Assembly: GCF_030534335.1 (NCBI RefSeq)
Contig: NZ_CP130565.1
Coordinates: forward strand, 1,385,501 to 1,449,500
Reading direction: 5' to 3'
DNA length: 64,000 nucleotides
Origin: Marivirga harenae
GTDB lineage: Bacteria > Bacteroidota > Bacteroidia > Cytophagales > Cyclobacteriaceae
Each line of letters starts with the position of its first letter. Positions within the stretch are counted from its first letter, which is position 1. The notes below the pieces were generated by a model. That model did no database searches and was not told the origin of the DNA. It worked only from the letters and a program-made list of their open reading frames with translations. Shown here piece by piece: positions 47,084 through 48,947 of the stretch. Position numbers and translations under genes: made by a program.

Positions 47084-47351
47084 AACTTTTTTGTTTTAAG
47101 GTTTAACAATTAATTTTTAATGTTAACATAGAAAAATCTATACCAATTAAATTCTTTTGGTAAAATAAGACATATTGACACTATATTGAAATTTTATCAA
47201 CTAAAAACATGACGTAATGGCTGGTTTATTGAAATTGCTGAGCGTAAAACTGACGAAATATAGCTTGAAAAATATTTTACGATTTTTTTAAAAGAAGTAT
47301 TTGGAAATAATAAAAGAGCCTTGCATATTTGCATTCCCAAACGGATAAAAT

Positions 47352-47425
47352 TCCTCTTTAGCTCAGCTGGTTAGAGCATTTGACTGTTAATCAAAGGGTC
47401 CTTGGTTCGAGTCCAAGAAGAGGAG
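47352..47425 (+). tRNA. tRNA-Asn (anticodon GTT)
   Basis: Full cloverleaf: acceptor TCCTCTT/AAGAGGA, D arm AGCTCAGCTGGTTAGAGC, anticodon stem TTTGA/TCAAA with loop CTGTTAA (GTT at 47386-47388), T arm CTTGG TTCGAGT CCAAG. Discriminator G; CCA is not encoded. A terminator follows. Confidence 0.97.
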
Positions 47426-47426
47426 C

Positions 47427-47457
47427 AAAGCCTTACAGAAATGTAAGGCTTTTTTTA
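47427..47457 (+). terminator. Terminator after tRNA-Asn
   Basis: GCCTTAC and GTAAGGC pair around a six-base loop, followed by seven or eight T residues. Confidence 0.85.
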
Positions 47458-47685
47458 TGCCTATAGATTTATAAAGTTCAATTTGCTTTCGATCTGGCAA
47501 GCAGATATCTGGAATAAGTGGATTCTTTTTGCTTGGATTGATCTCTTTTCAAAAAAAGAAAGATCTTATTAAAAATATAAACTGCTCCAACTAAGCTGAT
47601 TTGGACAAGTCTGAAGGATTATTTCGAAGGAACACGTATAAATATTCTAGAAAACAAAAAGCTTCCTATTAAAGGAAAGCTTTTA

Positions 47686-47779
47686 TGACAAGTGCGGTCT
47701 GCCTTCTCTGAAGGACTAGAATAAGCTGAAGAACGACAAGAATCCCCAGGGATCGAATGTTCACAAGATTTTAAGTCTT
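47686..47779 (-). pseudogene. Degenerate tRNA-Leu 3' part (copy R1)
   Basis: On the minus strand it begins with AAGACTTAAAATCTTG, the anticodon arm of tRNA-Leu(UAA), continues TGAACATT like the variable arm, then diverges and carries extra hairpins (for example CCTTCAGAGAAGG) where the T arm should be, and ends in a decayed acceptor strand (CACTTGTCA). It directly follows the stop of the GIY-YIG ORF at 47780. The 5' half of the tRNA is absent. A terminator-like stem (47657-47685) follows it, as after the intact tRNA. Confidence 0.7.
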
Positions 47780-48016
47780 TTATCGTAAGCTTTTTAAAAA
47801 TTCTCTTCCAGAGCTGCTCTTTAACCATTTTTCATGATCCCTTGCTTCTTTTCTGTTAGAAAATTGTTTTGTGTAAATAATCTTAAATGGAGTGTAAGGA
47901 GCTGTAGTTTTTTCTCTGCCTTCATTATGCATTTTAAACCGATCCTCAATATTTGATGTGAAGCCTTTGTATATGTAATTTTTATGAATACTCTGAAGGG
48001 CGTAGGTAGTAAACAT
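47780..48016 (-). CDS. GIY-YIG nuclease-domain protein (copy 1)
   Basis: A 78-residue single-domain GIY-YIG protein. The first motif is TYALQS, the second YIYKGFTS (YIG variant with Lys), followed by the catalytic-type Arg in IEDRFK, HNEG, the strand YTPFKIIYTKQF and the C-terminal EKWLKSSSGREFLKSL. Short stand-alone proteins of this kind (UPF0213/Uri-like) are predicted endonucleases of unproven function. The stop codon is adjacent to a duplicated tRNA-Leu anticodon arm. It differs from copy 2 by about five bases, mostly changing residues, so both copies are recent and both remain open. Confidence 0.85.
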   Translation of the reverse strand: MFTTYALQSIHKNYIYKGFTSNIEDRFKMHNEGREKTTAPYTPFKIIYTKQFSNRKEARDHEKWLKSSSGREFLKSLR

Positions 48017-48049
48017 AAATACAAATTAGTATAAATGCCATAAAATACA

Positions 48050-48077
48050 AAAAGCCTCTCATTACTGAGAAGCTTTT
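48050..48077 (-). terminator. Terminator after tRNA-Leu copy R2
   Basis: Minus strand AAAGCTTCTCAGTAATGAG then AGGCTTTTT: an imperfect stem with T run, the same structure that follows the intact tRNA-Leu, duplicated with the array unit. Confidence 0.65.
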
Positions 48078-48078
48078 G

Positions 48079-48176
48079 TGCCAGGAGCGGGCTTGCCTGC
48101 TTTGCAGGACTTGAACCTTCCTATGAAAAAGGCAGGTAAACCCGCACGAACTAATGTTCACAAGATTTTAAGTCTT
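48079..48176 (-). pseudogene. tRNA-Leu 3' part with T-arm insertions (copy R2)
   Basis: Starts on the minus strand with the anticodon arm AAGACTTAAAATCTTG and continues identically to the intact gene through the variable arm to GTGCGGG. The T stem is then interrupted: about 25 bases precede TTCAAGTCC, and about 15 more (including CCTGCAAAGCAGG as a hairpin) separate it from CCCGCTCCTGGCA. So the TTCAAGT T loop is kept between two insertions. The 5' half is absent and the piece follows the GIY-YIG ORF at 48177 directly, so it cannot make a tRNA. Confidence 0.85.
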
Positions 48177-48413
48177 TTATCGTAAGCTTTTTAAAAATTC
48201 TCTTCCAGGGCTGCTCTTTAACCATTTTTCATGATCCTTTGCTTCCTTTCTGTTAGAAAATTGTTTTGTGTAAATAATCTTAAATGGACTGTAAGGAGCT
48301 GTAGTTTTTTCTCTGCCTTCATTATGCCTTTTAAACCGATCCTCAATATTTGATGTGAAGCCTTTGTATATGTAATTTTTATGAATACTCTGAAGGGCGT
48401 AGGTAGTAAACAT
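48177..48413 (-). CDS. GIY-YIG nuclease-domain protein (copy 2)
   Basis: A 78-residue GIY-YIG domain protein: TYALQS, YIYKGFTSN, IEDRFKRHNEG and EKWLKSSPGREFLKSL. It starts 62 bases after the 3' end of the intact tRNA-Leu gene, beyond a terminator stem, and could be made from readthrough of the tRNA transcript or from its own promoter. Its TAA stop lies at the junction with tRNA copy R2. Residue differences from copy 1 are Met to Arg, Thr to Ser, Arg to Lys and Ser to Pro. Role as a homing-type nuclease for this tRNA gene is an inference from position. Confidence 0.87.
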   Translation of the reverse strand: MFTTYALQSIHKNYIYKGFTSNIEDRFKRHNEGREKTTAPYSPFKIIYTKQFSNRKEAKDHEKWLKSSPGREFLKSLR

Positions 48414-48445
48414 AAATACAAATTAGTATAAATGCCATAAAACAC

Positions 48446-48475
48446 AAAAAGCCTCTCATTACTGAGAAGCTTTTG
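48446..48475 (-). terminator. Terminator after intact tRNA-Leu
   Basis: On the minus strand AAAGCTTCTC...GAGAGGCTTTTTG forms a stem with T run starting right after the tRNA 3' end, ahead of GIY-YIG copy 2. Confidence 0.72.
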
Positions 48476-48559
48476 TGCCAGGAGCGGGACTTGAACCCGC
48501 ACGAACTAATGTTCACAAGATTTTAAGTCTTGCGTGTCTACCAATTTCACCATCCCGGC
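48476..48559 (-). tRNA. tRNA-Leu (anticodon TAA)
   Basis: Complete 84-base class II tRNA: acceptor GCCGGGA/TCCTGGC (one G-T pair), D arm GTG AAATTGGTAGA CAC, anticodon stem CAAGA/TCTTG with loop CTTAAAA (TAA), a long variable arm TGAACATTAGTTCG, and T arm GCGGG TTCAAGT CCCGC. CCA is not encoded. It decodes UUA. This is the only intact copy in the locus; pieces of it lie on both sides. Confidence 0.96.
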
Positions 48560-48640
48560 TTAATTTAATTCATGCTAAAAAGCATTGAATAAATTAATTT
48601 TTTAATTTTTTTATACCATTTTGTCCAAACTCCTTTAGCT

Positions 48641-48737
48641 GAACTAATGTTCACAATATTTTAAGTCTTGCGTGCCTGCCTGTCTTTAAACTTTCATAAT
48701 TGAAGGCAGACAGGTCTACCAATTTCACCATCCCGGC
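48641..48737 (-). pseudogene. tRNA-Leu 5' part interrupted by a 40-bp hairpin insert
   Basis: Minus strand GCCGGGATGGTGAAATTGG matches the intact gene exactly, then 40 foreign bases (48714-48675) split the D arm between GTAGA and CACGC, then the anticodon arm (with one change, AATATT for AATCTT) and the variable arm up to GAAC. The T arm and 3' acceptor strand are absent. A dead duplicate located between tRNA-Gly and the intact tRNA-Leu. Confidence 0.85.
48675..48714. repeat. 40-bp palindromic insertion
   Basis: CCTGCCTGTCTT at one end pairs with AAGGCAGACAGG at the other (12 bp, two as G-U in RNA), loop of 16 AT-rich bases. Precise insertion: removing it restores the tRNA-Leu D arm without scar or target duplication. 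Confidence 0.75.
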
Positions 48738-48756
48738 TAAGAAGGTGGTATGTGTC

Positions 48757-48787
48757 AAAAAAATAAGTGAGCCTTATGCTCACTTAT
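48757..48787 (-). terminator. Terminator after tRNA-Gly
   Basis: ATAAGTGAGC and GCTCACTTAT form a 10-bp stem with a five-base loop, followed on the minus strand by a seven-base T run. It implies that tRNA-Leu downstream has its own promoter. Confidence 0.82.
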
Positions 48788-48797
48788 CTAACTTTTG

Positions 48798-48870
48798 AGC
48801 GGGAGACGAGGTTCGAACTCGCGACCTCAACCTTGGCAAGGTTGCGCTCTACCAGCTGAGCTACTCTCGC
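48798..48870 (-). tRNA. tRNA-Gly (anticodon GCC)
   Basis: 73-base cloverleaf: D arm GCTC AGCTGGTA GAGC, anticodon stem CAACC/GGTTG with loop TTGCCAA (GCC), T arm GCGAG TTCGAAC CTCGT. The acceptor stem GCGAGAG/CTCCCGC has an A-C mismatch at the fourth pair, unusual but tolerable. CCA is not encoded. Confidence 0.93.
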
Positions 48871-48947
48871 TTTTCCCTCAATGGGATTGCAAATTTAATA
48901 GGCTGCTTTTAAAATACAATAGCAATTCACAAAAATTTAAAAAAAAT

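Follow-up and report, generated by a model that had tools for sequence, protein, structure and literature searches.

Two short open reading frames (ORFs) for GIY-YIG nucleases alternate with partial copies of tRNA-Leu(UAA) beside the intact tRNA gene in a 64,000-nucleotide stretch of the Marivirga harenae genome (contig NZ_CP130565.1, positions 1,385,501 to 1,449,500; referred to below as the window, with positions counted from its first nucleotide). This arrangement is one case of an anatomy widespread in the sampled Bacteroidota. We interpret it, with a probability of about 0.58, as a selfish, tRNA-specialised GIY-YIG cassette, i.e. a free-standing homing endonuclease comparable to phage SegB that resides in bacterial tRNA and transfer-messenger RNA (tmRNA) genes. 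This kind of mobile gene is probably selfish and apparently undescribed. The interpretation is carried by the strand-specific linkage of the ORFs to tRNA genes, by cognate partial tRNA copies with hairpin inserts, by protein clades that mostly follow tRNA identity, and by empty and filled sites in related genomes.

Linkage to tRNA genes and hairpin-tagged partial copies

All sampled genomes belong to the Bacteroidota. The window protein was searched against the genomes of 59 relatives, and a profile built from 47 tRNA-adjacent members was searched against a phylum sample of 247 genomes, 161 of which contained a match (E ≤ 1e-6), not all matches being tRNA-linked. The analysis set of 200 loci combined both searches with the window, two loci from its own genome and two further loci. 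The phylum-sample loci represent most, not all, of the best matches listed, and one match among the relatives, a 415-residue frame, was left out. Identical ORFs, ORFs not spanning profile positions 6–60, and L002, L003, L004, L006, L007 and L114 (window repeats or housekeeping genes) were removed before counting.

A tRNA or tmRNA gene on the same strand lies within 300 bp of 145 out of 233 non-redundant, near full-length ORFs, and one on the opposite strand was found for none (0/233). By source, the linked ORFs are 52 of 92 for the window and relatives, 91 of 139 for the phylum sample, a figure biased by the use of tRNA-adjacent members for finding that sample, and 2 of 2 for the further loci. 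When arrays headed by a tRNA were counted as a whole, linkage rose to 62/92 in the relatives sample and 118/139 in the phylum sample. A clade of longer GIY-YIG proteins, picked by eye from the tree (18 loci among the relatives, median ≈97 residues), showed no tRNA linkage and was handled as a different subfamily; excluding it leaves 62 tRNA-linked ORFs out of 74 among the relatives. ORFs at tRNA-free sites and partial tRNAs unrelated to the ORFs, which an earlier sequence-only analysis of the window (the original prediction) had named as observations against itself, were thus mostly not encountered.

An Rfam scan of 37 loci lacking a nearby same-strand tRNA call revealed tmRNA at three of them and, at four, tRNAs already called by ARAGORN. 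Ribosomal RNA, considered as another possible neighbour, was not found at any of the 37. The same-strand tmRNA is located upstream of the ORF by ≈210–220 bp at L066 and L083 and by ≈640 bp at L065. At four loci (L045, L116, L144, L153) the ATG of the ORF stands directly at the tRNA 3' end (distance 0), and tRNA 3' processing might therefore yield a leaderless mRNA.

The ORFs occur in two mirror-image layouts. In type I, the intact tRNA is followed by the ORF and a 3' part of the tRNA; in type II, a 5' part is followed by the ORF and the intact tRNA. In a comparison made without the tmRNA loci, a partial copy of the cognate tRNA was present across the ORF (score ≥ 20) in 126 of the 180 rows of type I and in 34 of the 49 of type II, versus 1 of 180 and 1 of 49 for a control tRNA of another amino acid. 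Of the type I copies, 59 of 77 begin between −20 and +10 bases from the end of the stop codon; the intact tRNA contains the stop codon in 17 of 32 type II cases. The type I junctions (n = 89) map to the D arm (41), the anticodon arm (25) or elsewhere (23), those of type II to the anticodon arm in 21 of 32. Some copies classed as partial, such as those at L039 and L143, are almost whole tRNAs.

Cassette units measure ≈0.3–0.45 kb and are frequently repeated. At least two ORFs were present in 50 of 201 same-strand groups, with up to eight ORFs per group and a median period of 366 bp. Eight GIY-YIG ORFs follow one another at L162 (G111:C34:5988-10413), where the 500 bp around each ORF yielded no same-strand tRNA call.

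Counts of inserts, folds, own-host matches and insertion points were obtained with a chain score of at least 18, counting only the nearest copy for each layout at a locus. Among 121 partial copies, 110 had an insert or replacement measuring 9 nt or more. Type I inserts (n = 107) are found in the T arm (55) or the anticodon arm (43), and for type II the D arm accounts for 29 of 39. Among all 57 inserts of the T arm, an overlap with the T-loop motif was seen in 45. A folding z-score below −2 was obtained for 103 of 146 inserts compared with 11 of 146 control stretches, the remaining inserts not necessarily being hairpins. The insertion points, counted without correction for relatedness, recur exactly within some tRNA families: GTTC|GAAT in 9 of 16 tRNA-Ser copies (9 genera, 9 different hairpins), replacement of one particular 8-nt stretch in 7 of 10 tRNA-Asp copies (7 genera, 7 hairpins), a D-loop position after GATA in 7 of 9 tRNA-Arg copies and a D-loop position in 4 of 7 tRNA-Leu copies. 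By eye, stem ends are alike within a tRNA family and loops differ.

Hairpin-tagged tRNA copies also occur without an ORF. At L258 (G291:C1:842200-843900), nine tandem 5' halves of tRNA-Leu(CAA), each ≈77 bp long, ORF-less and carrying the same D-loop hairpin, directly precede the intact gene. ORF-less tagged copies of tRNA-Arg are situated on both sides at L262 (four on one, one on the other), and those of tRNA-Val on both sides at L263. In the genome of the window, L264 and L271 (C1:2975400-2976600; C1:3533700-3534400), which lie outside its six matches to the GIY-YIG family PF01541, comprise a hairpin-tagged pseudo-tRNA-Lys beside each of two intact tRNA-Lys genes (by eye) and one pseudo-tRNA-Asp beside tRNA-Asp. 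The notion that the hairpins are general genome-wide repeats is true in part. In one non-random set of hairpin loci, 12 of 32 were placed in tRNA pieces by BLAST; in a second, likewise non-random set of 20 regions, five held hairpin-tagged tRNA copies, L276 lay beside tRNA-Thr and 14 were not tRNA-linked. A dispersed repeat with a CCTGCC..GGCAGG palindrome is present at L250, L253 and L256 of the window's genome, its flanks being without clear similarity to tRNA.

The nuclease and its tRNA-specific clades

Both window ORFs match PF01541 with 51.5 and 53.2 bits (E 1e-13 and 4e-14; curated cut-off 22.6 bits). Residues Y5, Y16, G18, R26 and E62, which we take to be the conserved catalytic residues of GIY-YIG nucleases, are invariant across 47 aligned sequences. 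The AlphaFold2 (AF2) model of the ORF 1 protein, with a predicted local distance difference test (pLDDT) score of 96.4, adopts the GIY-YIG fold. Its fold matches are 1zg2 (E 2e-4), SLX1 (E 9e-3) and I-TevI (E 0.13), only the first being below 0.001; by sequence, the nearest solved relatives are the UPF0213 proteins 1zg2 and 1ywl. We know of no report of UPF0213 proteins or SLX1 being tRNA-linked or mobile. The protein also matches phage endonuclease and homing-endonuclease families weakly. The ratio of non-synonymous to synonymous substitution (dN/dS) had a median of 0.12 over 15 non-independent ORF pairs, which points to purifying selection on the compared ORFs.

A FastTree tree was calculated for 228 proteins, of which 162 rows could be labelled by tRNA amino acid; the alignment has 84 columns and many forks are unresolved. 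Mapping tRNA identity onto this tree required 40 changes, compared with 104–122 in 500 shuffles. An IQ-TREE subtree of 57 rows grouped 19 of the 20 Leu-linked proteins in a single clade with an approximate likelihood ratio (SH-aLRT) support of 95. This clade spans several families, both layouts and the isoacceptors UAA, CAA, CAG and GAG. Protein clades thus follow tRNA identity for the most part, and the tmRNA-linked proteins of L066 and L083 formed a clade of their own in the IQ-TREE subtree. Layout is not clustered among the Leu proteins (5 changes; shuffle mean 5.9). Hairpin class, assigned by a rule of our own making in 105 rows, does cluster on the tree (32 changes; shuffle minimum 46). 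Within tRNA identity, however, 32 changes compare with a mean of 38.6 and a minimum of 31, so that an assignment of hairpin class to the protein instead of the tRNA is supported only weakly.

The ORF-less copies raise the possibility that the hairpin-tagged half-tRNA is itself the mobile unit and the GIY-YIG protein its transposase, recognising the hairpin in a structure-specific, SLX1-like manner and moving the half-tRNA, with ORF-less copies as non-autonomous forms. The existence of such copies (L258, L262, L263, L264, L271), the placement of similar hairpins in different arms within the Leu clade and the presence of SLX1 among the closest folds are in line with this. Yet most of the sampled regions with similar hairpins lie outside tRNA pieces, neither defined element ends nor excision products are at hand, and the association of hairpin and protein is weak beyond tRNA identity. 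We consider a transposase of this kind unlikely.

The tRNA-Leu(UAA) array of Marivirga harenae

All features of the window locus are on the minus strand and are arranged in the order tRNA-Gly(GCC), 5' partial tRNA-Leu, intact tRNA-Leu(UAA), stem, ORF 1, 3' partial copy, stem, ORF 2 and decayed partial copy. The intact tRNA-Leu(UAA) (48475-48559; called by ARAGORN, Rfam tRNA 60.3 bits) is the host gene and the presumed target of the cassette. It is followed at its 3' side by a terminator-like stem, T1 (48444-48474), and by ORF 1 (48177-48413; 78 codons, PF01541 E 3.7e-14, the ORF modelled above). The first partial copy occupies 48078-48176. It starts with tRNA positions 29-66 (48139-48176), the first base of which comes directly after the ORF 1 stop codon, and ends with the 3' acceptor end (48078-48091). 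Between these, in the T-arm region (48092-48138), two hairpin inserts of ≈21 and ≈15 nt flank a retained 11-nt T-loop piece; the stretch folds into two hairpins at −13.3 kcal/mol. A second stem, T2 (48047-48077), identical to T1, precedes ORF 2 (47780-48016; 78 codons, likewise a PF01541 match), which differs from ORF 1 at 5 nt. Directly after its stop codon, 24 clean nucleotides from tRNA position 29 onwards remain of the second partial copy (47756-47779). The decayed rest (47685-47755), without a clean tRNA match, was assigned by position alone, and a stem unlike T1 and T2 is found beyond it (T3, 47654-47684).

The order of tRNA-Leu, stem, 78-codon GIY-YIG ORF and tRNA-Leu 3' part at the stop codon, repeated once, agrees with the original prediction. 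The unit length of 355 bp given there does not: this is the spacing from the intact tRNA-Leu to the first partial copy, and the actual repeat has a period of 397 bp, with 300-nt copies identical at 292 of 300 positions. The difference is due to extra DNA within the first partial copy. The 5' partial tRNA-Leu upstream of the gene (48641-48738) had been missed. It consists of the acceptor strand and D arm (48715-48738), adjoining the native upstream flank, a 40-nt hairpin in the D loop (48675-48714; −12.2 kcal/mol) and the anticodon/variable part (48641-48674). An 81-bp spacer (48560-48640) separates it from the intact gene and would correspond to the position of the ORF at type II loci. By eye, nine relatives of the genus have no such 5' partial copy in the 260 bp that precede the gene. 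An assembly artefact, named in the original prediction as a further observation against itself, is unlikely, given that the two copies are not identical and that many other genomes show the same architecture. A recombinase gene was not seen in the array (47619-48502), where the longest frame has 94 residues.

The genome (4.37 Mb) matches PF01541 at six places. The window ORFs and two other short GIY-YIG ORFs are all located just downstream of tRNAs. At one of the latter (L001), tRNA-Ala(GGC) precedes the ORF and a degenerate second tRNA-Ala copy follows it; at the other (L005), the ORF has an internal stop and lies downstream of tRNA-Val. The other two matches are in long frames that the short-family profile did not detect. 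What ARAGORN calls a tRNA-Cys(ACA) at L005 (1256-1335) reads like a copy of tRNA-Val in which a hairpin stands in place of the anticodon arm, an example of how such pseudo-tRNAs can be misannotated.

Pseudo-tRNAs of this sort might also be functional RNAs. If the protein were a tRNA-directed toxin or defence nuclease cutting tRNA or phage tRNA genes, an arm-altered pseudo-tRNA could serve as an uncuttable decoy. The pseudo-tRNAs do keep much of the tRNA with one arm replaced or interrupted, tRNA-cleaving toxins act on these arms, and the protein clades follow tRNA identity. On the other hand, most type I copies are without the 5' acceptor strand and therefore cannot form a full tRNA fold, Rfam did not pick out the partial tRNA-Leu copies of the window as tRNA even with a threshold of E ≤ 1 (47300-48900), matches to the PADLOC defence models were only weak and partial, and GIY-YIG enzymes are, to our knowledge, DNA nucleases. 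We regard a decoy system as rather improbable.

For all ten genomes in the genus, the surroundings of tRNA-Leu(UAA) were inspected by eye over at most 260 bp on the upstream and 615 bp on the downstream side. The neighbouring tRNA-Gly is common to all ten. Neither ORF nor partial copy was seen in six (G001, G002, G004, G005, G006, G009). The site is filled in the window's genome and in G008; in G003 the sequence reaches the start of the ORF at a contig end, and in G007 a hairpin-tagged 3' part is present without an ORF. At tRNA-Asn, G005 and G009, which are 97–98% identical there, differ by exactly one 390-bp unit; the difference can be a gain, or a loss by recombination.

This last case would equally suit a passive passenger, that is, an ORF carried along when host recombination duplicates tRNA genes, with the hairpins as ordinary repeats in a copy that is not needed: homologous recombination could gain or delete the unit, and similar hairpins are present elsewhere. 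Purifying selection, tRNA-specific clades, the complete lack of opposite-strand neighbours (0/233) and exact recurrent insertion points with different hairpins all argue against it, and we hold it to be very improbable.

Most partial copies are closest to the tRNA of their own host. Compared with the same isoacceptor of other genera, the own host tRNA matched better in 75 of 96 cases, with 14 ties and 7 worse, in a test biased upward by the preselection of copies for similarity to the own tRNA. This speaks for local duplication or later gene conversion over simple import. Terminator likeness, examined as proof of local duplication, gave a mixed result: among single-ORF pairs, 16 of 47 were at least 85% identical and 25 of 47 less than 65%; an initial figure of 97%, driven by arrays, was set aside. 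The distal tRNA arm of the partial copy was perfect in 60 of 77 cases and in 19 of 33 where the terminators had diverged, the choice of the arm by exact match biasing these numbers upward. The tRNA-Ser(UGA) partial copies of L131 and L133, from different genomes, share one T-stem change, and their variable arms match those of their own hosts.

Known systems and a proposed mode of spread

Like SegB of phages T4 and T6, the cassettes consist of a free-standing GIY-YIG nuclease gene beside tRNA genes; SegB differs in being phage-encoded and next to a tRNA-rich region. According to the SegB report, the enzyme cuts inside tRNA genes and prefers the motif RAWTSGAAC (PMC13096335). Tandem amplification of tRNA-Tyr together with segB depends on this nuclease activity, and in the amplified unit of 718 bp, microhomology is reported for the 5' end of tRNA-Tyr and the 3' end of segB (PMC13096335). 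In our reading, the motif quoted there would be the reverse complement of the T-loop consensus. The half-tRNA duplicate, the hairpin tag and the tRNA-specific bacterial clades set the cassettes apart, none of these being mentioned for SegB in the sections of the report consulted (PMC13096335). As with free-standing homing endonucleases, the gene is located outside any intron or intein and beside its presumed target (145/233), and empty alleles exist in relatives (6 of 10 genus genomes, by eye). Whether a filled allele would be protected is less evident, the partial copy being altered (110/121) and the intact tRNA remaining.

Integrative elements that target tRNA genes by a tyrosine recombinase restore the intact tRNA at one end and leave a displaced piece at the other. 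The cassettes differ from these by the mirror-image 5' layout, the hairpin in the displaced copy and a unit without recombinase. Some group I introns carry GIY-YIG endonucleases, and some enter tRNA-Leu(UAA) at the anticodon region. An intron family was, however, not found by Rfam in 47300-48900 (E ≤ 1), the tRNA is uninterrupted, and many tRNAs as well as tmRNA are used. Short palindromic hairpins beside a small nuclease gene are also typical of REP/RAYT and IS200/IS605 systems. Here the nuclease is of the GIY-YIG and not the HUH type, and the hairpins are within tRNA copies, often at fixed arm positions; this identity was rejected on the window protein, no RAYT search having been made elsewhere in the genome. 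As to the original prediction, a minimal tRNA-tied element with a GIY-YIG domain as its sole protein gains from the strand-specific linkage, the tRNA clades, the arrays and the empty and filled sites. Two of its parts do not hold in general, the join in the anticodon arm and the likeness of this join to group I introns: type I junctions map to that arm in 25 of 89 copies, those of type II in 21 of 32.

We infer a nuclease-driven spread, including the cutting, the movement and the role of the hairpin, along the following lines. The nuclease would recognise its own tRNA gene and cut in the arm that now holds the hairpin. After repair, a duplicated tRNA-gene half would flank the ORF. In this spare half the hairpin would take the place of the cut site, which would protect the half from further cutting and from simply being recombined back. 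The tandem arrays could result if the regenerated intact tRNA were cut again and again, and the tRNA promoter may drive expression of the ORF. We propose that the host tolerates the cassette because a functional tRNA is kept.

Several points weigh against this interpretation. The intact tRNA retains the presumed target, which leaves classical homing immunity unexplained. Classical homing also imports the tRNA part of the donor, yet the partial copies mostly match the host, and a homing reading must add local duplication or later gene conversion. The clustering by tRNA could partly reflect vertical inheritance. By the same measure that showed recurrent insertion points in some tRNA families, those in others, e.g. 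Met and Val, are scattered; within the Leu clade the hairpins are in the T arm (type I) or the D loop (type II), and one cut site can therefore not account for them. Similar hairpins also occur away from tRNAs, and within tRNA identity hairpin class and protein clade are only weakly associated, as given above. The protein has no separate DNA-binding domain, and two of the 15 dN/dS pairs are near 0.69, on very few changes. In the phage (E ≤ 0.01) and plasmid (E ≤ 1e-3) collections the window protein found no match, and a mobile vehicle was therefore not identified.

More tentatively, and with some doubt, the cassettes might represent mobile elements of a class of their own, with half-tRNA ends and a minimal, structure-sensing GIY-YIG nuclease as the sole protein. 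Insertion would duplicate half of the host tRNA gene and restore the host tRNA, and a nuclease-linked hairpin would be placed in the outer half, always at a fixed nucleotide. Each lineage would be specific to a single kind of tRNA or to tmRNA, and the ORF-less tagged halves would be non-autonomous, tandem-amplifying derivatives. A description of GIY-YIG genes linked to tRNA halves in Bacteroidota was not found among the papers listed by full-text searches, a provisional result.

If the cassette interpretation is true, a common and apparently undescribed selfish gene family resides in bacterial tRNA genes, as indicated by the profile match in 161 of 247 genomes, and provides a natural set of small nucleases sorted by their tRNA target. 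Target recognition by a GIY-YIG domain of ≈80 residues would then be readable from paired protein and tRNA data. The family could account for many pseudo-tRNAs and tandem tRNA arrays. Both the coexistence of a nuclease with an essential and still intact target and the origin of a hairpin at one exact base of a tRNA copy would become testable.

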